In this document: one piece after another, positions 3,343 to 29,109 of the stretch
Layout: the number at the start of each line of letters is the position of its first letter
Position numbering within the stretch: position 1 is the first letter of the stretch
Assembly: GCA_003249105.1 (NCBI GenBank)
Contig: QBLT01000018.1
Coordinates: forward strand, 1-34,795
Length of the DNA: 34,795 nucleotides
Origin: Leptolyngbya sp.
GTDB lineage: Bacteria > Cyanobacteriota > Cyanobacteriia > Phormidesmidales > Phormidesmidaceae
Direction of reading: 5' to 3'
Translations under genes and position numbers: made by a program
Notes under the pieces: model-generated
Databases searched by the model: none
Told to the model about the DNA's origin: nothing
Seen by the model: only the letters and a program-made list of their open reading frames with translations

Positions 3343-3367
3343 TGTGATTTCTAGCATATTTTGTCCG
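3343..3367 (+). repeat. Left terminal inverted repeat of the Tn7-like element
   Basis: TGTGATTTCTAGCATATTTTGTCCG; 21/25 match to the reverse complement of 27465-27489. Confidence 0.7.
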
Positions 3368-3390
3368 TTCTGGACAAAATATGCTAGAAA
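3348..3390. repeat. Perfect 19-bp inverted repeat with 5-nt spacer, made of two head-to-head putative TnsB sites
   Basis: TTTCTAGCATATTTTGTCC-gttct-GGACAAAATATGCTAGAAA. A third copy, AGACAAAATATGCTAGACA, follows at 3399-3417. Confidence 0.85.
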
Positions 3391-3428
3391 AAGTACGCAG
3401 ACAAAATATGCTAGACAAAGTTCTGGCA

Positions 3429-4226
3429 TCACTGTTGAGGAAGCAAACTCTCTATTATATCCCCTGTGCTATAGCTAGAGGTCAGCACTCTCTCAAGGGT
3501 TGGAGGTCTATTTTGTTTGCCGGGTTCAAGCTTGTTCCACCGCGTAAGCAGATCGCCTATGGCGTCAGCTTTCCAAGCTTCGTCGAAGGTTGGGCCGTAA
3601 GGGCGCGTATTCTCTGTGTCGAACTCTATGCCGCACCTTCCACATTGACCAGGCTGAGACCAAAATCTGAGAACTGGTTGCCTAGAATTGCACCAGTAGC
3701 AAGATAACCGCAACCGCCGTTCATGGCGGCGGCACATACAGACATCGCGGAAGGACCAAATCAGTAAGTCATGTACTGGCTGACCCAAACTCCTTTGCTC
3801 CTGGTAACAAGCAGGACACCAAGCACGCTGTAAACGTAAGACCGAATCTTTTTTTACATATCCTTTCAGAGGAAGCGTCGTGAGCAAGTGGAGATCTTTT
3901 CGCTTGGTCAACTCCGCTAGCGCAGATACAGTTGCTTCGGTTTCCTTCGACATATCGAGCCACTTGCCGATATGCACATGGGCAGGAGTGACATTGTTTC
4001 TGACTACTGTATCTATTTTATAGACGCTCCTTTGAGAGCGTGTGTTCTTCCACTCAGAGCCAATTAAAGGATGGACAAAACGGTAAATTAGGACACATAT
4101 ATCAAGGCAGTGAGCTTCTGCCAGGCGCATGGCATAGCTTGCAAGACTTTCACAATATGGGGTTCCCAGGCCTTCTGGCTTCAAGGAGAAGAGCTTACTA
4201 GGCTCTGGAATATCAAGCTTCTGCAT
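3429..4226 (-). CDS. tniQ: TniQ family transposon targeting protein, short form (265 aa)
   Basis: N-terminal TniQ-like GTPYCESLASYAMRLAEAHCL; zinc-ribbon cysteines CPACYQEQ, CMCRRHERRLRLSCYWC, CGRCG; downstream of TnsC and TnsAB. Confidence 0.85.
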   Translation of the reverse strand: MQKLDIPEPSKLFSLKPEGLGTPYCESLASYAMRLAEAHCLDICVLIYRFVHPLIGSEWKNTRSQRSVYKIDTVVRNNVTPAHVHIGKWLDMSKETEATVSALAELTKRKDLHLLTTLPLKGYVKKDSVLRLQRAWCPACYQEQRSLGQPVHDLLIWSFRDVCMCRRHERRLRLSCYWCNSRQPVLRFWSQPGQCGRCGIEFDTENTRPYGPTFDEAWKADAIGDLLTRWNKLEPGKQNRPPTLERVLTSSYSTGDIIESLLPQQ

Positions 4227-4279
4227 CGTTGGATCTAGGTAAAGTCAACCCGTTACAGACTGGGGCTCAACAGAATGTT

Positions 4280-5419
4280 CTAGCTGGCATTTTTGTCATC
4301 ACCAACTTTCCGACGTTTGGGCTTGGGCTCTCCTACTCGCCGGGGTTTGGGGGACTTGGCGGCAGATGGTGCGCTGCTTCTCACCTCGGGTTTTAAGTCG
4401 ATGATTGGATCAAGCCCCAGTTCAATACGAAAAGCATCTCGTGAAATAGACGCTTCCAGAACTTGTTCCCCTTGACGAATCTCACGCTCCATAGTTGAGC
4501 AGGCATTGAGTGAGTAGGCGTATTTCTCTAGATCAGTCAAATTTATGGTTTTAGCGTTACTTTTGTTGTACAAAGTGCCTGCAAAGGTACGTAGCAGCCA
4601 ATCCTTCAGAATGCCAACGCATCCAAGACTTCTTTCGTAACAAAAATCCCAATTAGCTATAAGGTCTGGCTCTTCTTCTAGGGGTAAATGTCTTTGAAAA
4701 GTACAAATAATGTTTTTGAACACTTTTACGTCACTAGAAGACTTTGCTCGATAGCGAGGATAATGAATTTCTGTACTGCGACGACACAACTGACCACTAA
4801 GATTTCGTAAGTGAAGAAGCTCATAAGTGCCTACTAAGAGTATGGGAATTCCAGCCGAATTGGCAATAGACTTAATGCAATCTGCTTGCTCGTGTAAATG
4901 TCTCGCAGTAGAAACTCTGCCAAGATTTTGGGCCTCATCAACGTAAAAAAGTTTAGGTTGTCGATATTGCAAGTTTTTTTCGAGAAGCAGTCGTAATCTT
5001 GCCTTGGTAGCATGATGAACATTCATTCGAGCTAATAAATGATCATCACGATCTACAAGAGGGTCGTTTAATACCTCAAGTGCCCTCACATAGAAATCTT
5101 TCCAATTGAAATTACGCAGATCTGGTGTGGGAGCTTCAAAGCCAGCAAACAAGATCTTGCCTTTATTCTCTTCGTATTCTTTTATAAACTCACTAGTTAA
5201 CCTTTGAACTGTTCTTGACAGGAGAGTGGTTTTTCCTACGCCAGTCGGGCCAAAAAGGAAAGTAACTGCTGACCCGGCAGGCTCACTTAATGATGTCACC
5301 AGTCTTTCTGCTGCCTTGATTAAATTAGGATGTGCTACCGTGAAATCTTGAAAATACTTCACTTTATTCTCAATTGAATCTTTAATAAGATCTGGGGGGA
5401 AGCGATCTTGAATTGACAT
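4280..5419 (-). CDS. tnsC: TnsC/TniB-like AAA+ ATPase, transposition regulator
   Basis: Walker A FGPTGVGKTTLLS; Walker B KLFYVDEAQNLGR; gene context; end-to-start overlap with tnsAB at 5419. Confidence 0.88.
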   Translation of the reverse strand: MSIQDRFPPDLIKDSIENKVKYFQDFTVAHPNLIKAAERLVTSLSEPAGSAVTFLFGPTGVGKTTLLSRTVQRLTSEFIKEYEENKGKILFAGFEAPTPDLRNFNWKDFYVRALEVLNDPLVDRDDHLLARMNVHHATKARLRLLLEKNLQYRQPKLFYVDEAQNLGRVSTARHLHEQADCIKSIANSAGIPILLVGTYELLHLRNLSGQLCRRSTEIHYPRYRAKSSSDVKVFKNIICTFQRHLPLEEEPDLIANWDFCYERSLGCVGILKDWLLRTFAGTLYNKSNAKTINLTDLEKYAYSLNACSTMEREIRQGEQVLEASISRDAFRIELGLDPIIDLKPEVRSSAPSAAKSPKPRRVGEPKPKRRKVGDDKNAS

Positions 5420-8217
5420 TAGTATTCTCCATAGATTTCAAATTCTTCTTCGGCTTCATCTTCAAGGTATCGTTCTACCGTTGGCAAAATTTGGGAATGA
5501 TTTTGCTCTATGTCTGGCAGCACATAGAGGCGGACTTCCTCAGAATCATGAGGTTGAGTTTCTTGGGTGTCATGGGGTATAGGCAAAGTCTCTGAAAGAC
5601 CACCCTCAATCACCCGTAGCACAGTTTGATTGTCAAGCGCCTTGAGTCGTTGCTTCAGTAAGACTTCGTGTTTGTCTATATCTTTCAAGAACTGGGCAAG
5701 CTCTCTGTCCGAGATCTCTGTATTTTTTCCGATCTGCTTTTTTCGCTTTTTAACTTCCTCACTAGCTAATTGGACTTCTTTTTCTGTACGGCCATTTAAG
5801 ACGGAAAAGTAACCAGAAGTACATTTAACCCATTGATTTCTTGCGTACGCGTAAGCAATCCCGATATTGAAGGGATCGTACCTCACCTCAATTTTTTGCT
5901 TCTCCAACATGGGGTCTCGAAAAATATCGTTCCAATACCAAATGTTGAAAATTTTGATCCCTCTAGTGGGCTGAATTTTGCGTGTATCTGGCTTTGGGGC
6001 AGCTAGAGTAAGAATTTTGAAGTTCTCGTTATACTCAATGCGACGATGTTCACGCTGTCCACCGATCGCTAGACCGCTGGTATAGGCATCACAAGGGCTT
6101 TGATCCAGAGCTGGGTGCTTTTCTTGGTCGTATACTTCGTACAACCAGGTGCAAAGGAATTTGTAGAGGTCAGGCAAGTTCCACAGGGCATTTCGCTTAG
6201 GGTCAACGGTTTTAGTGGTTTGCCGATTTTTTCTTCCCTGAGTATTGCCCTGAAGGTTGTACAAAAACTCCTGGTTATTAGTGCCAAACATCCGTTCGAC
6301 CAAGGTGCCGAAGCGGGCAAAAGCAGGAGGGCGATATTTAAGGGTGATCTGGTAGAAAGCAGCTAGGTTATTGAAATAAATGCTGTGAAATTCTGAGCCA
6401 TTGTCTACGACTATGGTTTGGGGTAGACGCTTGAAACGACTTACGCAGATGCGCATAACCATCATGCAGGTGCGGTAGCTGGGCGACTCATAGGTCACGT
6501 AGGCTGCCAGAATGCGGCGACTGTAGGCGTCAATCATCAGTGTGAGCCAAGCTTGGTTAGCAAGTTCTTGGGGCTTACTCAGTTTGTCAACGCTGATGTT
6601 GCAAAGGCTCAGCGATTCCAAGGAGCTGAGTAGCTCAATATCCATTGGAGTGTGGTCGATATGGACAATCTCAAAGGGGCGGCTGCCGTGCTGTGGGGTG
6701 GTCCGAGTCAACTCCCAGTACATGAGCTCTTTTTGGATTGCGGCGCGTTTGCCCTGGCGCGATCGCGTTTGCTCTGCTCCAGATCGTCGCTTTACCGCGT
6801 TATAAAACGAAGCCCGGCACGGCAATACCCAGTCGGGGTGCTCTTCGGCAAAGTCAGCCTTAAACGTCTTGAAAACACTGTGGGCGTTCCGTTGCTTGAT
6901 AGTTTCGTAGTGCTTTTGGATGTAGGAATCCATATACGCCAGGACTTCGGCGCTAATCTTAGGGACTCGATTGCCCTGTAAGCGGCGGTTAGGGACAAGC
7001 CCTACAAGACCATTGCCGTATTTCCTCTCAGCTGCCCTATAGCGATCGCGCCATCGCTTGACCGTTCTTGTGGGGCATATAGGTGCAGATTCACCTAGGT
7101 AAGGTTGAATGGCCTGGTAACGCTCGTAGGCATCTTCCATTGCTTTAGGGCTGGCCTGACGCAGAAGGTCGTTGACGGCTGCTTGAAGTTCGTCATGGTG
7201 GCTTACCTGATCGACAGCGGTGATTTCTCCCCGGTCGATCAATGCATCGAGCTGTTCGTTATTGAGGGAGACCATCTGCCCATCAGCCTGCTGAAGCGAG
7301 GTTTTATTAGTTCCGGTATTGCTGATCTCCCAAACTTCACCATCCCAGTTGAGCCTGACGCCAATGGAGATCTGGATGCGCTGGAAACCATCAGGGGAGG
7401 TAGGGGCCTGAATCAGCTGGGCCTGAACGTAGGCCAAGGCGATCGTCTCATTTAGAAAGACTTTGACCGCGTGATGGTTAGAGAGCTTGCCGCTGTAGAG
7501 GTCAACGTAGATCTGCCGGGTGGCAATCAGGATGTAAATGTCGTCTGGGGTAGCCCCGGTATCGGCCCCCAGCAAATCAGCTAGGGAGAGCCCTCGGCGC
7601 TCTTCAACCAGGTTTTGCACAGCCGCCACAGTGGTCGGTTCAATGACTGGGCTGTCAAATCGCAGATAGTCGTCTAGCCAGGCTATGTTGTCCTGGAATT
7701 CCCATGAGACCTCGACATCTGACCAGACGCGGAAGGTTAGGCCAAAGCGGGCGGCGTACTCCTCCCCTGGTGGGCAGCGCCAGACGCCATCTTCGTCGCG
7801 ACAGTAACGGTTGGGTTGAGTCTGCGCCAGCTTCTCTAACTCGGCTTCCGGCTTGCACTCCTCCCAGCTAGCCCCATTGGCCCTAATTACAAAGAGATCA
7901 GGGGTGCTGACAACGCGACAAGGCCTCCCGCTCCTGGCTTTGTAGATGAGCTCCACGCCGCCATGGGGCTGGTCGTAGTATTCCAAAACTTCGTCATCAA
8001 ACTCTAGCTGGATGATGCGGGCTAGCTCAACTCGGTGCGACTCAAACTGAATCGTCACTCCCATCTTTTTGCTGGGGTAGCGGCCAGAAACGTTTTTGCG
8101 CCCACCCTGCACCGCTCGGGCAGGGGGATTATGGCGTATGGCATCAATACGCTGCTGGACCTCTGGGTTGAGCCCTTGTTGGTGGTACCAAATACGAAGA
8201 TCTGAGTCAGTCAGCAT
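5419..8217 (-). CDS. tnsAB: TnsA-TnsB fusion transposase (TnsA-like endonuclease plus DDE integrase core)
   Basis: N-terminus SKKMGVTIQFESHRVELARIIQLEFDDEVLEYYDQP...TPDLFV...WEECKPE fits the TnsA PD-(D/E)xK pattern. C-terminal DDE: EIVHIDHTPMD, TIVVDNGSEFHS, FGTLVERMFGT. Confidence 0.88.
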   Translation of the reverse strand: MLTDSDLRIWYHQQGLNPEVQQRIDAIRHNPPARAVQGGRKNVSGRYPSKKMGVTIQFESHRVELARIIQLEFDDEVLEYYDQPHGGVELIYKARSGRPCRVVSTPDLFVIRANGASWEECKPEAELEKLAQTQPNRYCRDEDGVWRCPPGEEYAARFGLTFRVWSDVEVSWEFQDNIAWLDDYLRFDSPVIEPTTVAAVQNLVEERRGLSLADLLGADTGATPDDIYILIATRQIYVDLYSGKLSNHHAVKVFLNETIALAYVQAQLIQAPTSPDGFQRIQISIGVRLNWDGEVWEISNTGTNKTSLQQADGQMVSLNNEQLDALIDRGEITAVDQVSHHDELQAAVNDLLRQASPKAMEDAYERYQAIQPYLGESAPICPTRTVKRWRDRYRAAERKYGNGLVGLVPNRRLQGNRVPKISAEVLAYMDSYIQKHYETIKQRNAHSVFKTFKADFAEEHPDWVLPCRASFYNAVKRRSGAEQTRSRQGKRAAIQKELMYWELTRTTPQHGSRPFEIVHIDHTPMDIELLSSLESLSLCNISVDKLSKPQELANQAWLTLMIDAYSRRILAAYVTYESPSYRTCMMVMRICVSRFKRLPQTIVVDNGSEFHSIYFNNLAAFYQITLKYRPPAFARFGTLVERMFGTNNQEFLYNLQGNTQGRKNRQTTKTVDPKRNALWNLPDLYKFLCTWLYEVYDQEKHPALDQSPCDAYTSGLAIGGQREHRRIEYNENFKILTLAAPKPDTRKIQPTRGIKIFNIWYWNDIFRDPMLEKQKIEVRYDPFNIGIAYAYARNQWVKCTSGYFSVLNGRTEKEVQLASEEVKKRKKQIGKNTEISDRELAQFLKDIDKHEVLLKQRLKALDNQTVLRVIEGGLSETLPIPHDTQETQPHDSEEVRLYVLPDIEQNHSQILPTVERYLEDEAEEEFEIYGEY

Positions 8218-8439: not shown

Positions 8440-8456
8440 TGTCGCATTATGCGACA
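8440..8456. promoter_or_regulatory. Near-perfect palindrome TGTCGCATTATGCGACA in the tnsAB/RHH intergenic region
   Basis: 8-bp arms around a single central base. Confidence 0.6.
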
Positions 8457-8585: not shown

Positions 8586-8789
8586 ATGGGCAAACCGATT
8601 CGCGAAGTTAGGGGACGCATTCCTCAAGATCTCAAGATTGCTTTTGAGGTAGCCTGTGCACGCCTAGAGGTTAGCCAGGCCAATGCGCTTGAGGATGCTA
8701 TTAGAGAATGGCTACTAAATCGAAGCCTTCCCATTAGCGAGCAGCCCCTAGAAGTAGAGTCAGCTAAAAAAACTTCTTCGAGCCCTTAG
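8586..8789 (+). CDS. Small ribbon-helix-helix-like protein, candidate transposon regulator
   Basis: MGKPIREVRGRIPQDLKIAFEVACARLEVSQANALEDAIREWLLNRS resembles an RHH/Arc-type fold. ATG at 8586 chosen over the ORF-track start at 8559. Divergent from tnsAB. Confidence 0.55.
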   Translation: MGKPIREVRGRIPQDLKIAFEVACARLEVSQANALEDAIREWLLNRSLPISEQPLEVESAKKTSSSP

Positions 8790-8924
8790 ACTCATCCGTA
8801 TCTTCCTGAGTTTGTACATAACTCTCATGGCTCATGATCAATTGACAGCATTACCGTGAATCCCTTACGGGGCGCGGCTAAGCTGCATTGATTGCTCGGC
8901 GTTTAGAGAGGAAACAAGACAGAG

Positions 8925-9668
8925 TTATTTCAAAACTACGATGTTGCTATCTAGGCCCTGACGAGAGATTTCAAGTCGAGAGTTGTGGGATAGCTTACCC
9001 ACAGCGATTGGTTCGACGTTGAATGGGAAGAGGGTAGGGGCTTGAACAATAATGTTGAGCGGGCTAGAGCTAACATCGCTGGCTCGTAGTGATGCCTCTA
9101 TCAGCCATAGAGAAACTTGGCTGTCTGCTATGGGGTAAGGCGAGACAGGGTGATACACCCCTTTTTCTGGGGTGTCTTTGAGGACTTGCCAGTCAATGAA
9201 GGTTCGGAGTACACGCCGGGCAGCACGGGATACCGTCGAGCGTTCTCCTAGCTGCTCGTAGATGCGTCGATAGACTTGGGATGCGGCTACGGAACCCTGC
9301 AAATTGATCAGGCGACCCACAGTCTCAGCCATGAGCTGAAAAAAGGGATAGGCGACCATAGCCATGCCCCAATGAATCGGCAAATGCTGGTCAGAGGGTA
9401 GAGTCTGTAGGTGCCGCAAGCCTTCATCCCTAAGGGGTTCCAGATCAGATGGGACTGAAACCCAAATCCGCATCAGATTGTTGATCGCTTTGCGACGATT
9501 GGTTTGGGCTTTGGATGTTGTCCCCACAGAGAGGTGTTTCCGCAACAGCAGATCCAGCTCGCCTCGAATTTCTGCTTGAGGGGCGCTGTTGAGTTGAAGC
9601 TGGGCTGTTCGCTCTAGCCAATCAAGTTGGAGCCGCTGGCTTAATCCGACCGAGACAGGTTTGTTCAT
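8925..9668 (-). CDS. brxA: BrxA-like protein (DUF1819 type), BREX
   Basis: MNKPVSVGLSQRLQLDWLERTAQLQL...; last gene of the operon after pglZ; ATG overlaps the pglZ stop (ATGA). Confidence 0.75.
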   Translation of the reverse strand: MNKPVSVGLSQRLQLDWLERTAQLQLNSAPQAEIRGELDLLLRKHLSVGTTSKAQTNRRKAINNLMRIWVSVPSDLEPLRDEGLRHLQTLPSDQHLPIHWGMAMVAYPFFQLMAETVGRLINLQGSVAASQVYRRIYEQLGERSTVSRAARRVLRTFIDWQVLKDTPEKGVYHPVSPYPIADSQVSLWLIEASLRASDVSSSPLNIIVQAPTLFPFNVEPIAVGKLSHNSRLEISRQGLDSNIVVLK

Positions 9669-11677
9669 GCTGGGGCAAGATCGAGCTGAATGTAGGGGAC
9701 AATGACTTCTTCTAGGGAAATACCGCCGTGGCACACGATGGTTTCCTCAGTATTTACAAAGGCTCGCCTGGAGGGTGCGAATAGGGCTTTGTAGTCATTG
9801 GGCAGTCCAGTAGAAGGCCACTCGATAGTATCAGGATACTGAACTTTGATTTGGTCTCTCAGCTGGGTGTTCGGGTAAACCCTGACGCGCTCTCCCCGTT
9901 TATCGGCGATCGCCCCCTCTTTGGGGTTACCCATCCCCGTTGCCTCGATGTTGCCATGGTCAGCGGTGAGGAATACCTGAAACCCCTGCTCAAATAGCAT
10001 CGTCAGCAGATCGCGCATAAAGCCCGTTTCTGCCCAGAGTTTCACCTGGTTGTGCATACCTACGGTGCCTAGGGTCATGCCATGCATGATGTCATCGACC
10101 TGGTTAACCACCAAACCTACGGCTCGGAGCTTGGGGGACGCCAATAGCCTTTCTACATCAGCAAGGCTTTCCAGATTGCCCAATGCCTTGAGATAGCCAA
10201 CATTTTGAGGCATCAGTCCTTCGTTGACCCAGAATTTTTGCCACTGGTCGGGCTCTTTGCCGGTGTGGTGGATGCTGGCTGGAAACTCATCGGGCTTACT
10301 CCCAGAGAACAGGGCCTGTCGCGACACCGAAGTGGTGGTCGGCAGCCAGGCGAAAACCCCGGTTTCTTGGATATTGAGATGGGGCATCTGCTGCCTTAGC
10401 ACCCGTCGCAAGATAAGCCATTGGTCGAAAGCCAGACCGTCGAGCACTAGGAGAGCAACTTTGGCATCCTTTTTCCCCATGGCACCTCGGCTCAGGCTCT
10501 GGGGAACGTGGTGTAGCATCACAGGCTTATTGGTGAACTGAGAATAGAGTCCCTTGTACTTCTCATGCACCCAGGTCAAAAAACTGGCGTCAACATGGCT
10601 CTGTAGTGTCTTGTAGTCTAGTGCCAGTGCTGCTCTTTGCCCGTGAGAACTTTGATGCCACAGCCCGATTAGTTCAGCCCAGCTTTGGACAAAGGCAATC
10701 CACCGCTCATAGCGGGCATGAGGATCTGGAATTTCTTGCTGGAGGGTTTGTAGTAGCTTTTCGAGTCTTTCTTGGCGATCGCTAGCTGGATCTAACCTGA
10801 GCCCAGCCCTGAGCCAGATATTGTCGGGAATGGTTCGGGGCTTGCCGTGGAGATTCGTGAGGCTAATGGGCTGGAGAAAGCCTTCTAGGAAGAGATTATC
10901 CACGTAGACCCTGACAGGCTCATGGTCGAGGGGGAGCAACACGGGTTCTGGGATGCCGTAGAACCCTGGTAGGTCTGAACTGATGCCATTTTGCACCAGC
11001 TGCCGTTGAACGAAGGGCAGCCAGCGGTCTTGCAGGAACATAAAGAAGGCTGCCCGGTTCGGCAAAATCTCTTCCAGGGGCCACTGGGCTAGCTGGGGAT
11101 TTTTTTGTAACTGCTCGATCAGCCGCGAGTCCAGGAGAGAAGGCACCGTCAGGTTTTGGTAGTGGCGCTTCAGCAGCTTTTCTAGCAGGTCGGCGGGCTC
11201 TTTCACCCGCTCCGGCACCCAATCAAACACATGCTCTAGCAAAAAATCTTTGGTGGCGTTCTCTCCCAGTGGCTTGGAGAGTATATTGGCTCCAGCCGCT
11301 TCTAGAGCATCAAACTCGGCTGGATTGAGGGTTTTGATAACGGGATAGCTGAGCTTTGGGAACAGGGCTGGCAGAGAAAGAGTAATTTGACGACTAGATA
11401 GCACTAAGTCGTAGGGAAGATTGCCGAGTTCGGCCTGCGCCCCCAAGAGAACAACAACCAGGTTAAACGAGCGGTTGGCCTCCCACTGGGGCCGGTATTT
11501 GGACTCCAGAATGAACCGGAAGGTAATGGCATCGCCATAGGGCACCAGCTCCAAGCCTCTATGCTCTAGGGCTTGCTGCATGGATAGCTCAGTCAACAGC
11601 CGATCTTGATCGGCCACCCAGGTAATGGGCGAAACCTCGGTAGCAAATTCATTCAAGATGAGATCGCGCCAAGTCAT
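9665..11677 (-). CDS. pglZ: PglZ, alkaline-phosphatase-superfamily BREX protein
   Basis: KVALLVLDGLAFDQW, WLPTTTSVSRQALFSG, FLTADHGNIEATGMG; typical PglZ motifs and size. Confidence 0.92.
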   Translation of the reverse strand: MTWRDLILNEFATEVSPITWVADQDRLLTELSMQQALEHRGLELVPYGDAITFRFILESKYRPQWEANRSFNLVVVLLGAQAELGNLPYDLVLSSRQITLSLPALFPKLSYPVIKTLNPAEFDALEAAGANILSKPLGENATKDFLLEHVFDWVPERVKEPADLLEKLLKRHYQNLTVPSLLDSRLIEQLQKNPQLAQWPLEEILPNRAAFFMFLQDRWLPFVQRQLVQNGISSDLPGFYGIPEPVLLPLDHEPVRVYVDNLFLEGFLQPISLTNLHGKPRTIPDNIWLRAGLRLDPASDRQERLEKLLQTLQQEIPDPHARYERWIAFVQSWAELIGLWHQSSHGQRAALALDYKTLQSHVDASFLTWVHEKYKGLYSQFTNKPVMLHHVPQSLSRGAMGKKDAKVALLVLDGLAFDQWLILRRVLRQQMPHLNIQETGVFAWLPTTTSVSRQALFSGSKPDEFPASIHHTGKEPDQWQKFWVNEGLMPQNVGYLKALGNLESLADVERLLASPKLRAVGLVVNQVDDIMHGMTLGTVGMHNQVKLWAETGFMRDLLTMLFEQGFQVFLTADHGNIEATGMGNPKEGAIADKRGERVRVYPNTQLRDQIKVQYPDTIEWPSTGLPNDYKALFAPSRRAFVNTEETIVCHGGISLEEVIVPYIQLDLAPA

Positions 11678-15133: not shown

Positions 15134-16507
15134 TCAAATAATATATATAGCGGTTCTCACTGGCATGAGGTACCTTGAGATGCCTGGAACGCTTATTAAA
15201 CAAGACTTTTTGGGATCGGGCTGTACCTCATCAGATAGAGAACCGCTATATATATCTTCAGGATTATCTTCACTGCACTCAAGAACAAAATCTTCTGACA
15301 GTGTTAAAAATTGTTTTAATACTCTATCTTTCCAAGATTCTATAGTTAACAAGACATCACGGTAGTCTGTTTCTTCTGAGAATCGAAGTACAATTTGCCT
15401 CAAAACTCGCTTACTATTCTCATCCGTAGTTTCGCCTAGATTTGAAGCTAGCAGTCTCTTAAGAGCAATCGTAAAATCTCTCGATGTTGAATCATCTTCG
15501 GCCATTTCTGCAAGCAAAGTGAAAATATCTTCTCTCCTAGCATCGAGAAAATCCGAAGGAAGATATCTTGAAAAAATACCTAATCGCCTTCTTAGAAGAG
15601 ATATATCTTCCTCTTCTAAGGCATTCAGACAAAGGGTAGCCCAAGATTCTACATTATACGACTTTAGCTGAGGTGCAGGAAGGGCAGCCAATATGGCTCT
15701 AGCCTCATCTCGTTGTTGCTTGCCACAATAATCAGAAACCCGCACATCCAATCCAACCAAAACAGCAAAAAAATCTGGAGCTTGTGCTGCAAAACCTTGC
15801 ATCCCATCTGCAATTCTGCTTACCAAGCTGCTATCACTACAATGATTCAATAAGATTTTAAAGAAGGTAAGCGCATTCTTTCGCCAAGTTTCATTGGAAG
15901 CATTTGGCCTTTCCTGAGCGGCGAGAGAAGGAAAGAGATGCCATAATCTCGCAGGAACTTGATCTAAAATACTTTTGCAACTCTCCGCAGCACGTTGATC
16001 AGAAGGGAGAAAAAAGGAACTTGAAAAGCGATTTGTTACTACATCTTTTATAAAACTCGATCCCCTATAACTACTTCTACAAAGCACTATTTGGGAACAA
16101 ATTTCAAGTATATGCCTCACTGCTTCTGCAGATGGAATTGCTTCGCTTGGATGAGCGCACTTTGAGCGAATATCTCGTGCAAATCTCAGGCATTTCTCTT
16201 CATAAGTATCGAAGAGCTCACATTCTCTGCACGAGATAATAAGTTTCTCTTCATAAGAGGCAGTATTCTTGACTTCCTCTAGAGCATTCCAGGAATTTTG
16301 GGCAACTGGATCTGCTTCAATACTTAACTTCTCTAGCCTTCGTTTTAAACAATCTGCAGTTGCTATCCAGCCAAGAATAATCGCTGCTCTGTGAGAGCCA
16401 ATGTGATAGCATCTAACTGCTTCCCGAAACATTTCTCGATTACCACTATCGAGAATTTGCTCTGTAACTATATCAAGATCTAGGAACTTAGTTTCTTCTC
16501 TATACAT
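15134..16507 (-). CDS. Putative HEPN-type protein, C-terminus replaced by MITE-encoded residues
   Basis: CLRFARDIRSKCAHPSEAIPSAEAVRHILEICSQIVL contains an Rx4H (RSKCAH) pattern in a helical context. The last ~38 residues (YSGSLSDEVQPDPKK...AIYII) are encoded by the inverted-repeat element. Confidence 0.55.
   Translation of the reverse strand: MYREETKFLDLDIVTEQILDSGNREMFREAVRCYHIGSHRAAIILGWIATADCLKRRLEKLSIEADPVAQNSWNALEEVKNTASYEEKLIISCRECELFDTYEEKCLRFARDIRSKCAHPSEAIPSAEAVRHILEICSQIVLCRSSYRGSSFIKDVVTNRFSSSFFLPSDQRAAESCKSILDQVPARLWHLFPSLAAQERPNASNETWRKNALTFFKILLNHCSDSSLVSRIADGMQGFAAQAPDFFAVLVGLDVRVSDYCGKQQRDEARAILAALPAPQLKSYNVESWATLCLNALEEEDISLLRRRLGIFSRYLPSDFLDARREDIFTLLAEMAEDDSTSRDFTIALKRLLASNLGETTDENSKRVLRQIVLRFSEETDYRDVLLTIESWKDRVLKQFLTLSEDFVLECSEDNPEDIYSGSLSDEVQPDPKKSCLISVPGISRYLMPVRTAIYII
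15141..15255. mobile_element. MITE-like element, about 115 bp
   Basis: Perfect 18-bp terminal inverted repeats ATATATATAGCGGTTCTC (15141-15158) and GAGAACCGCTATATATAT (15238-15255); imperfect extension inward (ATGAGGTAC on both arms); TA-rich edges. Confidence 0.82.
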
Positions 16508-19362: not shown

Positions 19363-19986
19363 CTAAGCTGTAGGGTTAATTAATTCTTCAATACAGTTAA
19401 AAAGCTTGTCACAATGCTCCGCCTTACTTCTCACCAGTGGCACACTTACTTGACCTAAAATATCTGGCCCATGGCGAATTTTATGATATCGGCCTTTCTG
19501 AGTATTTTTAGTAGCATTCTCTAAAGCACTTTCAACCGAAGACTTAGAAATCATCTCAACATTAGGATTGGCGGGAATTGAGCCTCGGCTAAATCTAGCC
19601 CCGTAATAAGCTGCCAATGTATCCACATCCGCAATCAACCAGTTTTCCATTACCTCTATCATCAAATGCACATGAGCATCATCAATGCCAGTCATATCCC
19701 ATCTGTCCCGTGCTGTTAAATGTTCAGAACAGGTAGGTCTTGTGATCGGATCTTCAGAATCCACCAATAAAATATTCGCCGCTTGAGGATGATCGACTAA
19801 CGCATTGCAATAGTCCTCATAGGTAGAATCTCTTCCACCACAGGCAATAATTGACCATTTGATCCTTTTATTGCAGGCTTGTTGTCGCAGACTATCCAGA
19901 AACTTGCCTACTCCCTCACGAAACTTTTGCTTACCCCTAGCTTGATCACCTCCCCCTTCCACATAAATACGAATTTCCCTTACCAT
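19363..19986 (-). CDS. DUF4276-like, TOPRIM-like protein, partner of the AAA ATPase
   Basis: MVREIRIYVEGGGDQARGKQKFREGVGKFL...NILLVDSEDPI; acidic EG and DSED positions fit a TOPRIM-like fold; start overlaps the end of the upstream AAA gene. Confidence 0.7.
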   Translation of the reverse strand: MVREIRIYVEGGGDQARGKQKFREGVGKFLDSLRQQACNKRIKWSIIACGGRDSTYEDYCNALVDHPQAANILLVDSEDPITRPTCSEHLTARDRWDMTGIDDAHVHLMIEVMENWLIADVDTLAAYYGARFSRGSIPANPNVEMISKSSVESALENATKNTQKGRYHKIRHGPDILGQVSVPLVRSKAEHCDKLFNCIEELINPTA

Positions 19987-21212
19987 CGTGTTGCCCCAAT
20001 TTCACCCATACTCCAAAGCTCACCCAAGCTATACTTCTCTAACCATTTTTCTAAGCGCTCTGGAGATAACCTTTGCAAGTGAGTCCCCTCCGGAGTTCGC
20101 TCACACACCATCACCGCTTCGGGCATCTCACTCAACTCCGAAACCAGCGTCTCCGAATGAGTCGTCACAATCAGTTGAGTCCTTTGCGATGCTGCGATTA
20201 GCAACTTCGCCACCGTCGGCAAAATATCCGGGTGTAGTCCCAGTTCCGGCTCCTCAATGCACACCAGCGGCGGCGGGTTAGGGTGACATAAAATCGTCAA
20301 CAGACATAAATACCGCAGCGTCCCATCTGAGAGCCGGGTTGCTGGAATTGGCTGTCTTAAACCTTTCTCTCGAAAGAAAACTTGAACGGTTCCCCCTTGT
20401 ATGCGAGGGATGATTTCTTCAATGTCTTCATAAAAATCTCGAAATCTTTCAATCAAAAATTGACTTCCGATTTGATGCTGTAAATTATTTATTACTAAAC
20501 CCAAGTTGCTACCATCTTCCAGTAAAAAATCTTCAGGAAGGTCTGTCTGTTGAGGACTTCGAATTTTTGAATTTCTACTAACATCTAATTCTCTGTACAC
20601 ATAGAATTTTCTGAAGTTTTCAGCTAAATAAGATATTTCTGGATAGCTAAAAGGATCTTTAAGCTGACTCAGAATTGATTCATTAGATAATATGTCAAGG
20701 TTTTTTGCTTCTTCTCTCCTGCTAGTTTGCCCTGGGTTTACAGAGGCATCTATAATTTTGCTTGCAAATGCATTCCCATGTTCGAATCTATAGAAGTCTC
20801 TAGTAGAGAAGTCTCCAAGCATGGAGGTTTGGGAGTTGGGAGGACTATCTTCTGTAGGGTAAATTCTTTCGAAGATGATTTCAGTCTTTTGGCCTGAACT
20901 AGTGAATTTCAAAAGATAACTTAGTGAATCATCTCCTATAGAGAAATTCATCGAGCAGCCTAACTCCGCGATAGGAGATTCATTCCCACCTTTCCAAAGC
21001 CATTCACTCACACCACCTCCCGCACGAATTCGTCTGTGAATGTCTTGCGGAAGAGCGCGAAAAAGTTTTATAGCCTCAATCAAGTTCGATTTACCAGAGG
21101 CATTGGGGCCAATAATCACATTCAAGGGTTCCAGTTCAATCGTTTCCCCTTCACTGCCATAGGAGAGGAAATTCTTTAGGGTCAAACTATGAATAAAGCG
21201 ATAACCATCCAC
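19980..21212 (-). CDS. AAA_21/RecF-like ATPase
   Basis: LNVIIGPNASGKSNLIEAIKLF, LSDGTLRYLCLLTIL, PPLVCIEEPELGLHPDILPTV, LIVTTHSETLV. Confidence 0.88.
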   Translation of the reverse strand: MDGYRFIHSLTLKNFLSYGSEGETIELEPLNVIIGPNASGKSNLIEAIKLFRALPQDIHRRIRAGGGVSEWLWKGGNESPIAELGCSMNFSIGDDSLSYLLKFTSSGQKTEIIFERIYPTEDSPPNSQTSMLGDFSTRDFYRFEHGNAFASKIIDASVNPGQTSRREEAKNLDILSNESILSQLKDPFSYPEISYLAENFRKFYVYRELDVSRNSKIRSPQQTDLPEDFLLEDGSNLGLVINNLQHQIGSQFLIERFRDFYEDIEEIIPRIQGGTVQVFFREKGLRQPIPATRLSDGTLRYLCLLTILCHPNPPPLVCIEEPELGLHPDILPTVAKLLIAASQRTQLIVTTHSETLVSELSEMPEAVMVCERTPEGTHLQRLSPERLEKWLEKYSLGELWSMGEIGATRW

Positions 21213-21296: not shown

Positions 21297-24200
21297 CTAC
21301 TCCACCACAATCCTCACCTTACTAAAATCCCGCCCCTTCGTCTGCTCCTTCAAATAAGCCTCAAACCGCCGTTCAATCTCCGCCTTGGTGGCAGGCATCC
21401 CCCCCTCCAGCAGCGCCCCCTTCACCGCATCAATCGACAGCACCACCTTATCCAACCCCGACAACACATCCTGCAACGCTTGAATAAACCCCTGGCTCAA
21501 CGACTCCGGCAGCACCCGCTTCGCCAAAAACTCACTCACCGGCTGGCGCTGGGCCTGGCCCAACAGATCCAGATTCGCCTGGGTAATCGGGTCTTCCAGG
21601 TTATCCAGCAGCGTCTTCGTCCATTCCTCCACCATCTGGTCGAGCCGCTCATCCACCTGGCCCAGCACAGACCCCGCTGGCCAATCCACCACCTCATTAG
21701 CCGGTCTAAAGCCACAGTGGGGGCAGGTAGGGGCCGCCTCCAGTTCCGCCGTCGTCAGCGCAAAACACGCTCTCAACTCGCCTAACTCGTTCTGTACCTC
21801 CGTCAGCTGCCCCTTCGGCATCAGGTCAATCGTCGCCAGCCGCTTCAGACTATCTAGCCGCCCATCCCCCAGCAATCGCTCCTTCTTGCTAGCGTCATTG
21901 GCCCCCAACCGGGCCTGGCCGTGCAGCTTTACATACTCCTGAATGTACCCCTGCTTCAACGCCGCCAGCTTTTGCACCGTCTGCTGCCGAAACCCTGATT
22001 GGCTGCGCTTCTCACTATCCAGCAGCTCCGACTGAATGCCATCCCGCACCTCCCGCATCTGCTTCAACCAGGGGTGATCCATCGGCAGCAGCGCCTCCGC
22101 CGTCGAGAGATACGAGGCTAACGACCCCAGCTCGCTAGTCAGCTCCCCCAAGGCTTCAATTTCATCCAGGGTTTGCAGGCCCCCCTGGCGGTTCTTCACC
22201 TCCTGGGCGCTAAAGCGAAAATTCTTCAGCTTGCCGGGGCTGCTATAGCCCTGCAACGACTCTAAAAACGCCTTGCCATCTGCAAGTCGCCGCCGAAACT
22301 CATCCTGCTCTGGGGTGCTCAGCAGCGGCTTGCCCCAAAACGGCAAGCCATTTTGCAGTTTTTGCTGGGCCACCACCAGCCGGTTCACCGTCGCCGTCAC
22401 CCCACTCTGAAGCTGCTGAATCGGTTCCACCTTGCCATAGGTCACCAACTGGGCTAGCCCCGGTGCCAACCCCAGCAGCTCAAACAGCGCCTTCAGCGCA
22501 GGCAGGTTCCAATCCTTCGGCGGTTCAACGTGCTTAAAGTTTTGCAGCCTCTCTACCGCCGTACTGGCCAGGGCATCCAGATTATTCGCGTCAAACTTAT
22601 CTCCCGGTATGGCCAGCACCACATCGCCGCTGTAGACCAGCGCCGCCAGCAGCACCACCACCAGCTCCGGCTCCAGTCGGTACCGCCCTGGGGCCATGTA
22701 CTCAATTCCCTGCACATCCGCAATCAGCTCCGAGCGGTTGAGCACCTGCCCCGGCCCCTTCTGGGCCAGCAAATTGCGAACGTATTCAGCGTACTTAGAC
22801 TGGTAGGGGTCAGTGCGATCGCCATCCAGCAGATTCAAGGCATCCAGCACCGCTGTCGCCTGTTGACTGCGCGTGCCCCCCCTCAGCGCCCGCAGTGCCG
22901 CCTCCACCGCCTGGGCACGGTTCTGCTGAGTCAACAGCACCGAAAACACCGGATACTCCGGCGCATCCTGCTCAAAGTGCTGGGCCAAACAGCTGGCCCC
23001 CACTAGGTTCACCATATCCCGCGTGTTAGCGCGATTGCCCGTGCTAAAAGCTTTACCTTTGACCCATTCCAGCAAGGGCTTGCTCTGTCCCTGGTAAGTG
23101 ACAGTAAAGGCAGTGGTGAGGCGATCGCGCAGCCATGCCGTCACCTTGCGCAGAGATTCCATCGCCTTGTGGTCGTAGGCTGCCCGCGCCTGCCCTGAGG
23201 CCGTCGAGGCTAAATCTACTGCTGCGGCGTAGAGGTGTAGGGCATCGTCAAAGTCTTGATCGGGCTTGGCCAGCTTAAAGAACACCTCGTCAGACAAGTG
23301 GTCGTCGGTGTAGTGGGGCGGGTCGTAGGGCTGAATAAAATACAGGTAGAAATCCCGCTGAGGCACCGCCGTGGCCCGCTCATTCGGTGCCCCAAAGAAA
23401 AGATAGCCTTGGCGAGTGGTGCGGCGTTCCTTCCATTCCAGATCATCGTGCTGCCAGATTTTGTAGCCGGTGAGGTAGGTCTGGTCTTCGCACTCCAGAG
23501 CAATCTTCAGCGCATCGTAGTAGTAGCGATCGAGCTGGGCATCCTCCAGGCTTTCCGACCGCTTCTCGATCAGCGCATCAAAGTCGTCGCTCTTCTTTAG
23601 GTCTAGAAAATACTGCCGGTTATCCGGGTTTGAGGAAATAAACTGACCGCTAACGGTCTTGTGAATTTCCCGCAGTACCGTTTCCACCTGGGAGCGCAGG
23701 TCATCCGCCGAGTCGCCCCCCAACTCTGCCACCATAGGGTCATACAGGGCCAGGGCATCCCGCAGTTCCTCTGGCGATGCCCCAATGGGCGAATAGATAT
23801 CTCCGGTAGTCAGCCGGTGCACCGACAGCCCGTAGACAATCCGCAGGGCCATAGGCTTGTAAGCTGGGCGGGTAAACGCCTGCTGCACCCGCGACTCCAG
23901 CACCTGGGAGCAGTCGATCACCGCCTTAATTTCCGGCACCGCCCGAAAGGACGGGTTTTCCTTCAGCGTAGTCCAGTAGCTGTCGTAGGCAATCAGCCCC
24001 GGCTCATTTTCCGGCACATCTTGATCAAGTCGCTGCTTCATCGCGATCGAGAGCGACTTCAACACCTCTCGCTTCTCCGCAAAAGAGATCCTCCCAAAGG
24101 TATCGATATAGTCGGGGTGAATAGGGTAAAGGTTGACGTAGTCCTCCATCCGCTCATTCAAGTTGCCGTAGAACCGGGCAAAGGGAGTCAGATGCTCGCG

Positions 24201-25010
24201 AATTTTGACCTGCTGCTCGGCGGTCTTCTTCAGCAGCCGCTGGGCCACCACATACTTCACATCGGTTTGGGCAATGCGCACCTGCTCAAAGCGATCCTTC
24301 ACCCGCCTCACCGTTTCCGCCACAAAGCTAAAGCGGGGGTTGTCAAACAGGGTCTCTTGCAAGCCCCCCACAAACCGAAACCGCGTATTTTTACAAATTT
24401 CGCCCACTTCCCGCAAAAAGCTCAGGTCTAGGATGAGTTCTTGATCCTTCCTAGTGCGTAAGTACTCCAGCAGCTCATCCACAATCAGCAGTAGGCCATG
24501 ATCGGGATACTCGCTTTGAAAGGCCTGCATCATGTCGCCAAAGGCCCCCTTGTGGTTAGAGAGCTGGTCTCGGGCTGGAAATTTATAGGAAACCCCCATC
24601 GCAAATAGGGCTTCCTCTAGCTCTGAGCAGACAAATTCCCGAAAGTCTCTTGTCGTCGAGCCCAGCTCTGTGCGAATGACCTTAAATTTGCCCGCGATCG
24701 CCCCCGCCGCCTGGGCTACCGTTTCGTTTTGTAACGTCTCTACTAGATCGCCGTGCTCTGCCAGGGCCGACAGCACCGACATCAAGTGAGACTTACCCGT
24801 GCCGTAGTTGCCCACAATCAGCAACCCCTTATTGTCGCTGGGCTCATCAAATTGCAGGTTCGGGAACACCGTCCCCACCAATCGCTCCCCCATCTCCTCA
24901 GAGATCACGTAGGTGCGCACCAGCGATTGAGCTTCCGTCAGCTCATTGGCATCCCGCAGCTGCACAACGGTTTCAATCGGGTCGAACTGGATCAGGTCGC
25001 GATATTTCAT
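21297..25010 (-). CDS. brxC: BrxC-like large ATPase (DUF6079 type), BREX type 3
   Basis: [22 protein letters not shown] Walker [18 protein letters not shown] Walker B; 1237 aa; lies between brxF and the other BREX genes. Confidence 0.9.
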
Positions 25011-25040: not shown

Positions 25041-25526
25041 CTAAGCAGACGGAAAAACGATTAGATCCTTGGCAGGGTAGCGACAATATTCAGGATGCCA
25101 AGGCTCGGCGTAGGCCAGATAACGTCCATCGTAGGTGCCGGGCCAGACCACCAGCAAATTATGGCGACGGGCAATCTGCTGAAGGCTCTTGAGCGGATCG
25201 AGCCGCAGCTGGGGGTCAAATAGAACCTCTATGCAATGGAGAACCGTCACCCGCAAATCTGTAGACAGCACAACAGCATCGATTAACTCCATAACTTTGT
25301 GAGGCCACTGCCGTTGGGGAATATCCAGCAGACGCTGGCTTAGGGCCAGATTCAGGTTGAGGTAGTGACCATCCAGAGCAACGGCAACCGACCGCCAGTA
25401 GGCCGTTGAGTCAGCCTCAACCGTAGCAAACACCAGCTGATGATACTGACCCTGGGCGATCGCTAGCAGGTCGGCCAAAGGAGCGATCGATGGCGCGTAG
25501 TTCCCCATACAGTCGATATTCTCCAA
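25041..25526 (-). CDS. brxF: BrxF-like small BREX type 3 protein
   Basis: HYLNLNLALSQRLLDIPQRQWPHKVMELIDAVV...IEVLFDPQLRLDPLKSLQQIARRHNLLVVWPG; directly upstream of brxC. Confidence 0.82.
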   Translation of the reverse strand: MENIDCMGNYAPSIAPLADLLAIAQGQYHQLVFATVEADSTAYWRSVAVALDGHYLNLNLALSQRLLDIPQRQWPHKVMELIDAVVLSTDLRVTVLHCIEVLFDPQLRLDPLKSLQQIARRHNLLVVWPGTYDGRYLAYAEPWHPEYCRYPAKDLIVFPSA

Positions 25527-25664: not shown

Positions 25665-25910
25665 TCAGCTGAGATTATCAGGATCAACTAGCTCCCCAAG
25701 ATAGAGCTTGATAAACGCCTGAGCCGCTTCAGGATTTACAGAATTTAGCGCCTTCACAATCTCAGAGACCGTTTCCGCCGTAGGGTCACGCTGCTCGTGA
25801 AACCACCGAAACACTACCGACCGACGCACGCCCAGCAGCGTCGCCAATTTGTTTTGGCTGATGTCGTAGGTCTCTAGAACCGTTTTCAAGGCGTAACCTG
25901 CTCTTCCCAT
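25665..25910 (-). CDS. XRE-family HTH regulator, candidate BREX/cargo regulator
   Basis: MGRAGYALKTVLETYDISQNKLATLLGVRRSVVFRWFHEQRDPTAETVSEIVKALN; internal ATG at 25910 preferred to the tracked start at 25985. Confidence 0.8.
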   Translation of the reverse strand: MGRAGYALKTVLETYDISQNKLATLLGVRRSVVFRWFHEQRDPTAETVSEIVKALNSVNPEAAQAFIKLYLGELVDPDNLS

Positions 25911-25946
25911 GCCCTGAATGATCTCAGAGGGAAGAAAAGTCGTAAA

Positions 25947-26006
25947 TGGACACTTAATGGCGTACACCCGATATATGATGGCCAAATGTAAGCCAATGAG
26001 TGTCCA
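25947..26006. promoter_or_regulatory. Extended inverted repeat in the divergent HTH/small-ORF promoter region
   Basis: TGGACACTTAATGGC (25947-25961) versus reverse complement of GCCAATGAGTGTCCA (25992-26006); 13/15 matches. Confidence 0.55.
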
Positions 26007-26008
26007 TC

Positions 26009-26337: not shown

Positions 26338-27167
26338 AATAATAGAGGGGGCTGCCTCGCCGTATCTCACCCCCACACGATACAACTCGGCCAGGTTATT
26401 TAAGCCGGTGGCCACTTCGAGTGATCGGCCCCAAATTATTGCTCTCGGCGTTGAGCAGCGTTGCGGTAAGCAACCTCAGCATCGGTATAGCGAAATTGGC
26501 GTTCGTAGGCTTGTCCCAAGCTGTTATACAAGCTAGCGATCAGGGGGGAGTCTGGGTCTTGGGCCAGTAGGTCATCAATTTGCTGCTGCACATCGGTAGG
26601 ATTGGCGGTGAGCAGGTTTTGACTCTGGGGCTGCTCTGGACTCTGGCTACCCTCTGGGGCAAGTGCCCAATCTATCGGCTGTAAAAACTCAAACACACCG
26701 CCTCGCCAGCTCCAAAAGTCAGGCGCTTGGTCAGCCAATTGTGTCGCAATGCGCGGTGTCAGCCACAGCACCAGCGGCAGCTTAAACTCCCGCAGCGATT
26801 CCCTCGTCCACTGCAATGAAAAGAGAAAGCGCTCTAGGGCCGATTTGTCTTCGTTTAGGCGCAGCCCTAGCAGCTCATCGGCTCCCAAAACAGTAACTAC
26901 GGCAGCCAGGCTAGTAGACAGCTCAGGCTGTTGCTCCAAGTGTTCTTGCAGACTGCGCTTGAGGCTTGGCTGGGACAGGTCGAGGCAAATGCGGTCGCAC
27001 CTCGTCCCCTTTTCCCGCAGCTCCGCCTCGTAGCTATCAACAATTTCATCGCGATACCTCCAATTATCGCAGATCGCCATCAGCAAATTCAGCCGCCCAT
27101 AGCTTGACTGTATCGACCACACCAACCGGCGCAGCTGATAATGATTTTGGGCTGCATCGTCGTCCAC
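26338..27167 (-). pseudogene. Truncated paralogue of the TPR gene at 27457-29109
   Basis: The 243-aa ORF (26436-27167) closely matches the N-terminus of the neighbour. After its stop a frame-shifted TPR remnant remains (ATGLNNLAELYRVGVRYGEAAP), then homology ends. Confidence 0.8.
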
Positions 27168-27325
27168 TAGCTACATCACTACAATCTAGATTTTGTTCGA
27201 TTGAGCAAAGCTAACACGATTAAATACCCTTAAATCACAGCTGACCAAAGCAAAGCCCATCGATATACCCCTGATTGGAAGGGGCAAATCGCTAAGCACT
27301 TGATATGTCTAGCTTTCAGCCGTCT

Positions 27326-27385
27326 CTGCACGATTGGACAAGATATCCTAGAAAACTGCACGATTGGACAAAATATCCTAGAAAC
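27326..27385 (+). repeat. 30-bp tandem duplicate holding two putative TnsB sites
   Basis: ctgcacgattggacaagatatcctagaaaa / ctgcacgattggacaaaatatcctagaaac. Two further sites at 27443-27461 and 27466-27484. Confidence 0.8.
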
Positions 27386-27456
27386 AAGGGAGAATAGGGC
27401 TTTGAGGTTCAACGAGAGATCAGGGCTTTCGGCGATCGCTTTGGACAAAATATGCC

Positions 27457-29109
27457 TTACTCGTCGGACAAATTATCCTCGAAGTCACAGATTTTCTGGG
27501 TCATAGGGTGGTCAGAGAGTTGATCGGCTTGTCCGGCCTCTAGGGCGGCCTGTATCAAGTCATTGAAGTTGTTGTAGCCAGTTTTGTTGTAAGGGTGATT
27601 TTCAGGTAATGTTTTCGCAAAAATAGAAAGTGCGCGTAGATAGAGGGGTTCTGCTTCGTCATACCGCCCCGTCGAGTAGTACAACCCAGCTAGATTATTC
27701 AGGCTAGTAGCAACGTCAGGATGATCAGTTCCCAACCGCTGTTCTCGAATGGTAAGTGCTCGCAGATAGAGGGGTTCTGCTTCGCCATACCGCCCCATTA
27801 AGTCGTATAGCCCGGCCAGATTATTTAGGCTGCTGGCTAATGAGGGATGGCCAGTTCCCAGCAGCTGTTCATAGATAGCGATCGCTCTTTTGTAGAGAGG
27901 TTCTGCTTCTTCATAGCGTCCCATCGACTCGTACAACCTAGCAAGATTGTTCAGGCTAGTAGCAACGTCAGGATGATCTTTCCCATAAGCTTGTTCATCA
28001 ATGGCAAGTGATCGCTCATAAAGGGGTTCTGCTTCTTCATAGCGTCCCATGACACGGTACAGGCCAGCCAGATTATTCAGGCTAGTAGCTACAGAAGGAT
28101 AGTCGGCTCCCAGACGCTGTTCTTTAATAGCGAGTGATCGCTCGTAAAGAGGCTCCGCTTCCCCATAGCGTCCCATCGACTCGTACAGTAAGGCCAGATT
28201 ATTCAAGCTAGTGGCTACATAGGGGTGGTTAGCCCCTAGCTGTTGTTTGTATATAGCGAGCGATCGCTCGTAGAGGGATTCTGCTTCTTCATAGCGTTCC
28301 ATCAACTTGTACAGCAAAGCTAGATCATTCAAGCTAGCGGCCACATCGGGGTGGTCGGCTCCTAACTGATGCCCTCGGTGGAGAAGGGCATTTCGGTAAG
28401 CAACCTCGGCCTCAGCATAGCGAATTTTGTCTTGGAGGGCTTTGCCTAGTTCGTTGTACAAGCTACCTAAAAGAGGCGAGTCTGGGTCGTGGGCCAGCAA
28501 CTCATCAATCTGCTGCTGTAAATCGGCGGGGTCGGCAGCAGGTTGCTTAGGGATCTGCTCTAGATTCTGGCCCTGACTACGCTCTGGCTCAAACGCCCAG
28601 GCGATCGGCTGCGAAAACTCAAATACGCCCCCCCGCCAACTCCAAAAATCGGGCGCTTGGTCTGCCAACTGTGCCGCAATACGCGGCGTCAGCCACAGCA
28701 CCAGCGGCAGATGAAAATCCCGCAGCGATTCCCGCGTCCACTGCAACGAAAACAAAAACTGCTCCAAGGCCGATCGCTCTTGGTTCAGGCGCAGCCCCAG
28801 CAGCTCATCGGCCCCCAAAATAGTTACTACCGCAGCGGCGCTAGTCGCCAACTCCGGCTCTTGCTCTACATGCTCTTGCAGACTTTGCTTCAGGCTGGGC
28901 TGGCGCAGGTCAAGGCGAATGCGATCGCACCTCGTCCCCTTTTCCCGCAGCTCTGCCTCGTAGGTGTCAATAATCTCATCGCGATACTTCCAGTTATCGC
29001 AGATCGCCACCAGCAAATTTAGCCGCCCATAGCTCGACTGTATCGACCACACCAACCGACGCAGCTGATGATGATTTTCGGCAGCAACATCATCCACAAG
29101 ATCCATCAC
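27457..29109 (-). CDS. TPR-repeat protein (kinesin-light-chain-type ~42-aa repeats) with a cyanobacterial N-terminal domain (PDFWSWRGGVFEF)
   Basis: Repeated units of the type LGADHPDVATSLNNLAGLYxxMGRYEEAEPLYERSLAIxEQR; the last ~10 codons lie inside the right transposon end. Confidence 0.88.
   Translation of the reverse strand: MMDLVDDVAAENHHQLRRLVWSIQSSYGRLNLLVAICDNWKYRDEIIDTYEAELREKGTRCDRIRLDLRQPSLKQSLQEHVEQEPELATSAAAVVTILGADELLGLRLNQERSALEQFLFSLQWTRESLRDFHLPLVLWLTPRIAAQLADQAPDFWSWRGGVFEFSQPIAWAFEPERSQGQNLEQIPKQPAADPADLQQQIDELLAHDPDSPLLGSLYNELGKALQDKIRYAEAEVAYRNALLHRGHQLGADHPDVAASLNDLALLYKLMERYEEAESLYERSLAIYKQQLGANHPYVATSLNNLALLYESMGRYGEAEPLYERSLAIKEQRLGADYPSVATSLNNLAGLYRVMGRYEEAEPLYERSLAIDEQAYGKDHPDVATSLNNLARLYESMGRYEEAEPLYKRAIAIYEQLLGTGHPSLASSLNNLAGLYDLMGRYGEAEPLYLRALTIREQRLGTDHPDVATSLNNLAGLYYSTGRYDEAEPLYLRALSIFAKTLPENHPYNKTGYNNFNDLIQAALEAGQADQLSDHPMTQKICDFEDNLSDE
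27465..27489 (-). repeat. Right terminal inverted repeat of the Tn7-like element
   Basis: Reverse complement TGTGACTTCGAGGATAATTTGTCCG; see the left end. Confidence 0.7.

Follow-up and report, generated by a model that had tools for sequence, protein, structure and literature searches.

The window analysed here is the whole of a 34,795-nucleotide stretch from Leptolyngbya sp. (assembly GCA_003249105.1, contig QBLT01000018.1, positions 1 to 34,795 of the forward strand). It contains a Tn7-like transposon of 24,147 bp (3343-27489) that carries a bacteriophage exclusion (BREX) type 3 operon, and immediately outside the left end of this element lies a conserved site that resembles dif. The transposition genes sit at the left end, are transcribed toward it, and are all on the minus strand: tniQ (3429-4226), tnsC (4280-5419), and a tnsAB fusion (5419-8217). 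TniQ has 265 amino acids, a Pfam TniQ match (1.3e-10) and clusters of cysteines, but no TnsD-like C-terminal extension. TnsC is an AAA+ regulator (Pfam TniB/AAA) with Walker A GPTGVGKT and Walker B VDEAQ. TnsAB matches Pfam rve and Mu-transpos_C, and its motifs are intact for both the TnsA nuclease (E, D, ExK) and the DDE transposase (IDHT, VVDNG, VER). With a TnsB-type DDE transposase, a TnsC ATPase, and TniQ encoded in a single operon, the window has the gene set of a Tn7-like element. The contigs used for comparison come from public assemblies, and the window's own genome is a draft in 412 contigs.

The left terminal inverted repeat, TGTGATTTCTAGCATATTTTGTCC (3343-3366, plus strand), and the right one, GGACAAATTATCCTCGAAGTCACA (27466-27489), are 24 bp long and imperfect reverse complements of each other. 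These inverted TGT...ACA ends are accompanied by several TnsB-like repeats, again as in Tn7-like elements. A 19-bp repeat, GGACAAAATATNCTAGAAA, occurs six times in the window with up to three mismatches, three times at each end (0.00 expected from shuffled sequence), and a repeat scan of the window found none between 3417 and 27336. The right end (27336-27489, plus strand) has four TnsB-like repeats, starting at 27336, 27366, 27443, and 27466. At the left end, the inner repeats (3372-3390 and 3399-3417; together 3372-3417, plus strand) are inverted relative to the outer one. With its second and third repeats turned against the first, the left end forms a palindrome (3348-3390), of which the terminal repeat is the outer arm. 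Every left end that we read in this group has the same palindromic form (also genomes G010, G019, G011, and G008).

Two genomes of the same genus have an empty site. In G012 and G022, window positions 1-3321/3323 are joined to 27489 onward, with 16 and 14 bp between them, respectively. As the flanks are contiguous without the insert, the whole 24.1 kb is an insertion with its junctions at the predicted ends, and 3343-27489 is one mobile unit. An earlier sequence-only reading of this DNA had proposed just such a Tn7-like transposon of about 24 kb, with tniQ-tnsC-tnsAB adjoining a terminal repeat, an inverted copy 24.1 kb away, and the same repeats clustered at both ends. It had also suggested looking for empty sites in related genomes, where junctions away from 3343 and 27489 would have spoken against it. 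The inverted ends, the repeats, the Pfam matches, and the two empty sites confirm what it had observed, at the positions that it gave.

Its further suggestion, a search for sister elements with the same ends and TnsAB, led to Nodosilinea nodulosa PCC 7104 (G010), which has an element in the same place with other cargo. The two TnsAB proteins are 88% identical, the ends and the left flank are the same, and the right end is 80% identical. Read by eye, the G010 cargo (G010:C2, L038-L041) comprises a Cmr-type III-B effector, a reverse transcriptase (RT)-Cas1 gene, and a CRISPR array. Cargo has thus been exchanged at one site, with BREX-3 in one species and type III-B CRISPR-Cas in another. These data bear on whether the transposon might be only the 5.4 kb of tniQ-tnsC-tnsAB, with the BREX operon as an unrelated neighbouring island. 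The presence of BREX-3 without tns genes in G044 and the lack of a matching target duplication in the window would fit such a small transposon, but the flanks are contiguous without the entire 24.1 kb in both empty sites, G010 shares the right end beyond different cargo, and end repeats are absent from 3417 to 27336. We rejected this explanation on the empty sites and the shared right end, and give it next to no credence.

The sequence-only reading placed the ends correctly and overlooked what lies just beyond the left one. Model matches and alignments delimit a conserved intergenic site of about 104 bp (3214-3317, plus strand) outside the element. It consists of two TAGTCC arms (3220-3236), about 76 bp upstream of a core (3291-3317) that reads GATTGTTTGCG-TGATA-GGCAACTATTC, an 11-5-11 inverted repeat. 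The core palindrome is 83 per cent paired, compared with 21-44 per cent when the frame is slid, and its two 11-bp arms are those expected of a dif site (about 28 bp). In G056, G064, G121, and one contig of G002 the inverted repeat is perfect. The genes beside the site differ between genomes, with an AMP ligase, an AraC regulator, an SGNH hydrolase, or a pentapeptide gene on one side and a tetratricopeptide repeat (TPR) protein, HsdM, FolE, or something else on the opposite side, so the site is not part of one gene. Two other kinds of attachment site (att) were also considered and rejected. No tRNA was found in the window, and a small RNA gene finds no support either in RNAalifold (-3.2 kcal/mol, no compensatory pairs over the block) or in Rfam (no match in the window). 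In view of the strong pairing of the core, a DNA palindrome fits better than an RNA gene.

Left ends of Tn7-like elements recur beside this site. The distance from the core to the palindromic left end is 25 nt in the window, 26 in G010, 33 in G019, 25 in G011, and 24 in G008. We read twenty genus-level sites, and at six of them lies a Tn7-like left end or the remnant of one; all six share one orientation, with the end facing the core, and represent no fewer than three sequence types. None turned up at the sites that we read in other genera. G011 retains only a left end, the left end in G027 is degraded, and G008 (G008:C471, L284:11054-11288) holds a 235-bp deletion remnant with Tn7-like ends on the left and the right, the right one of this family, and no genes. 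The sequence ACAG directly borders both ends of the G008 remnant. In G010, a second left end, TGTCAAGC, begins exactly 5 bp (TTTAA) past the right end, and elements therefore stack at the site. Insertion beside the site is repeated and not random.

One could instead suppose a single old insertion that was inherited by Nodosilinea species and had its cargo replaced later, with no repeated homing. At the DNA level, identity between the window and G010 is indeed similar in the tns genes, at 81%, and in the ligase gene of the flank, at 79%, which speaks for inheritance. However, two genomes whose flank is closer to that of the window (87% for G022, 82% for G012) are empty and scarless, the left ends fall into the several sequence types described above at 24-33 nt, and other genes surround the site in G008 and G027. 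We consider this history improbable.

About equally improbable, in our view, is an ordinary Tn7-like defence-island transposon whose attachment site is the 3' end of the TPR gene and for which the conserved site close by is incidental. That gene (27457-29109, minus strand) flanks the element on the right. The right junction falls in its last codons, for which the transposon end now provides the sequence; in the empty site these codons are read through, and gene ends are frequent homing targets of Tn7-like elements. Yet the site is retained in genomes that have no TPR gene (G009, G002, and G023), left ends adjoin it next to other genes in G008, G011, and G027, and the distance to the core hardly varies from one gene context to the next.

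We next consider what the conserved site might be. A model of 103 positions, applied with a cut-off of E <= 0.01, matched 79 of 145 relatives. Leptolyngbya sp. BL0902 (G016) has exactly one strong match on each of its six replicons, the chromosome and five circular plasmids; the plasmid sites are intergenic, and one lies on a plasmid of 26 kb. With dnaN as a proxy for the origin, ten single-contig chromosomes have the site opposite it, at a distance of 0.376-0.500 of the circle. The individual values are 0.477, 0.465, 0.477, 0.484, 0.500, 0.450, and 0.376 for strong matches and 0.439, 0.491, and 0.477 for weak ones, and the antipodal position of the seven strong matches has a simulated P of about 3.5e-6 against a uniform null. 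Being present nearly once per replicon and opposite dnaN, the site is most likely a cyanobacterial dimer-resolution (dif-like) site. Published prediction found no dif in any of the cyanobacteria to which it was applied (PMC3025954), and according to a genome paper that came later none is predicted (PMC6416890). The conserved site is a specific candidate for the dif that prediction missed, and it makes chromosome dimer resolution in these multi-copy genomes testable.

The plasmid copies in BL0902 (L255-L259) share a downstream stretch, ATCAACGAG..TTCAAGG, that is absent from the chromosomal copies; by analogy, it might be accessory sequence such as plasmid resolution sites have. No recombinase gene is annotated within about 3 kb of the site in the four BL0902 plasmid regions examined.

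The site might instead be another single-copy feature of the replicon, such as a partition site, a terminus-organising site, or the site of another recombinase, to which the element also homes. The TAGTCC arms are foreign to the classical 28-bp dif, and some chromosomes have additional weaker matches. Against such a feature, the site lies opposite dnaN, whereas partition sites are usually near the origin, and it occurs once on each replicon of BL0902, even on the 26-kb plasmid, with a core that is an 11-5-11 inverted repeat. We judge this alternative unlikely, though less so than an attachment site in the TPR gene.

Taken as a whole, the explanation that we favour, and hold with good confidence, is a cut-and-paste Tn7-like element with a TnsAB fusion and BREX-3 cargo that homes beside a dif-like site. 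From what is known of the family, TnsAB would bind the end repeats and excise the element, and TnsC would connect the element to the target that TniQ marks. TniQ may recognise the site by way of, or jointly with, a host protein that occupies it, probably a recombinase of the Xer type. We propose this because the element has a single, short TniQ and neither a TnsD nor a Cas effector, and because of two precedents. A small TniQ has been proposed as the mark of an additional target selector (Faure et al., PMC10293859), and Tn5053 targets res sites according to PMC11406308, which cites Minakhina 1999; the title cited there speaks of target sites occupied by cognate resolvases. Recruitment by a host protein at the site is plausible on this analogy. 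Both transposition and defence activity are predicted for the element from its genes and ends.

Several observations count against this explanation. A 5-bp target-site duplication is expected of a fresh Tn7-like insertion, although it can later be erased. The window has no matching one (TCCGT on the left, GATTT on the right), and neither does the G010 element, which means that neither element arrived in one clean event. We assume that serial or tandem insertion and recombination would account for this. The missing duplication does not take the window element out of the Tn7-like group, since its ends, its genes, and the empty sites all point the same way and such duplications can be lost through recombination or serial insertion. 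The intact elements of this lineage that we read number only two. The site model had no match in the complete cyanobacteria G071, G076, G080, G063, G362, and G383, and it gave extra, weaker matches on some chromosomes (G056, G029). The proposed dif function comes from position and copy number. Alternatively, the target may be chosen by TniQ alone, or by the ribbon-helix-helix (RHH) or helix-turn-helix (HTH) protein of the element. Finally, G044 (G044:C336, L210) has a BrxC that is 86% identical on a 5-kb contig without tns genes.

A bolder form of the explanation is that this TnsAB branch of Tn7-like elements has swapped TnsD or CRISPR targeting for a short TniQ that reads the host recombinase on dif, and so homes to the replication terminus, and that the site found here is where chromosomes and plasmids of cyanobacteria resolve their dimers. 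We offer this tentatively, as something a little short of an even bet. If true, it would be a new target-selection pathway without TnsD or guide RNA, and the element would be a natural test of targeting by a short TniQ. Set against the literature other than the cyanobacterial TnsAB survey (PMC9881144), the target site is the new part.

The cargo is a full BREX type 3 system with extra modules, as the sequence-only reading had described it; PADLOC, NCBIfam, and Pfam between them identified BrxF, BrxC, PglXI, BrxH, PglZ, and BrxA. The operon lies on the minus strand and includes, from right to left, brxF (25041-25526; NCBIfam BREX_3_BrxF, 122 bits) and brxC/pglY (21297-25010; PADLOC BrxC, 1873 bits; Pfam DUF6079). 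An embedded HEC-01-like pair follows (19363-21212), made up of an AAA ATPase (19980-21212; PADLOC HEC-01A, 9e-162) and a DUF4276 protein (19363-19986; HEC-01B, 1.2e-71). Next come the adenine methyltransferase gene pglXI (16508-19360; PADLOC PglXI, 1326 bits) and an inserted defence-like gene (15134-16507) with N-terminal similarity to PD-T7-3 (PADLOC, 3.5e-9, residues 10-147 only). The last three genes are the helicase gene brxH (11682-14498; best PADLOC profile BrxHI/BrxHII, 1470 bits, with an ambiguous subtype label), a BREX-3-type pglZ (9665-11677; NCBIfam BREX_PglZ_3, 733 bits), and brxA (8925-9734; PADLOC BrxA, 6e-78). Judging from these matches, the operon is predicted to be the phage-defence cargo of the element.

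BrxC of the window type occurs in four of 390 cyanobacterial genomes, and three of these four also have TnsAB, adjacent in two and on a separate contig in G222. G083, from another family, carries BREX-3 in a TnsAB element that encodes two TniQ proteins; BrxH was not found there by homology. Its ends are TGTGACTG...CAGTCACA, with a perfect 5-bp duplication (CTTTA) on both sides, and it adjoins a gene that reads as tRNA-Leu. In G222 the BREX-3/TnsAB arrangement seems to be spread over two contigs, with BrxC 93% and TnsAB 81% identical to those of G083, and BREX-3 probably lies inside a TnsAB element there too. The sequence-only reading had named relatives with BREX genes and no tns genes as evidence that would refute it. 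One such case exists, G044, while the other genomes with BrxC have TnsAB; with that exception, both of its proposed tests were largely favourable, and its interpretation is supported. G044 contradicts an obligate linkage of BREX and transposon, and the BREX genes are therefore cargo that is not obligately linked to the element. Across brxF-brxC, G044 is 64-86% identical to the window in protein sequence, and this segment adjoins a UmuC-like fragment.

The elements in the window and in G010 share a core made up of the tns genes, a small RHH-like gene, a regulator of the XRE type, and a palindrome conserved between them. The palindrome, TGTCGCATTATGCGACA (8440-8456), is perfect over 17 bp and lies between tnsAB and the divergent small RHH-like reading frame; it is kept at the same place in G010 with one mismatch. 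It is likely an operator for control of the transposase. A single operator serving both tns and BREX was rejected, as the palindrome at 8440 has no second copy in the window. The RHH-like protein (8587-8790, plus strand) has 67 amino acids and a fold class that we infer; its DNA is 77% identical in G010. The XRE-type HTH regulator (25665-25985, minus strand; Pfam HTH_3, 3e-9) has 90% amino acid identity in the G010 element.

Just inside its right end, the element has a second version of the N-terminal portion of the TPR gene beside it (26436-27167, minus strand; 79% DNA identity), which the G010 element does not have. It looks like captured neighbouring host DNA. Upstream of the flanking TPR gene, 29322-30587 encodes an AAA/KAP-like ATPase, and this pairing of AAA and TPR genes recurs near the site in related genomes.

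Among known systems, the nearest solved relatives of all three transposition proteins belong to PmcCAST (Tn7744), a CRISPR-associated transposon (CAST) of type I-B2: TnsAB is nearest to PDB entry 9bw1 (1.6e-246), TniQ to 8fcu (2.4e-35), and TnsC to the PmcCAST TnsC. The G083 element, of the same branch, resembles I-B2 and I-D elements in its place beside a tRNA-Leu gene. The window element, in contrast, has a single TniQ and a dif-like site instead of a tRNA gene. Profile scans of the window proteins found no Cas proteins, and the window has no Cascade with guide array and no second, long TniQ (TnsD) of the kind that homes to a tRNA gene in I-B2 and I-D elements. The Tn5053/Tn402 res-site hunters likewise have a single TniQ and target replicon-resolution sites. 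They differ in having no TnsA, in being replicative with their own resolvase, and in targeting res sites of Tn3-family elements on plasmids; our element has a TnsA domain and a chromosomal dif-like target, and the profile scans identified no resolvase gene in it.

Defence cargo in Tn7-like elements, which the sequence-only reading called a known theme, is indeed published. Benler et al. (2021; PMC8649781) count 40 Tn7-like elements with BrxC and include Cyanobacteria among the host phyla, so BREX carriage by such elements, in cyanobacteria too, is already known and ordinary. Their table uses BrxC (NF033441) as its basis, and the passages that we read mention neither a type 3 operon nor an attachment site that resembles dif. 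The BREX genes of the window are the same set, in one operon, as in other BREX type 3 systems, and the operon differs from the usual one in embedding the HEC-01-like pair and the PD-T7-3-like gene. The conserved site, in turn, is like XerCD/dif in occurring once on each replicon of BL0902, in lying opposite the origin marker, and in having an imperfect inverted-repeat core of about 27 bp, and it differs in its 5-bp centre, its extra TAGTCC arms 76 bp upstream, and a sequence unlike known dif.

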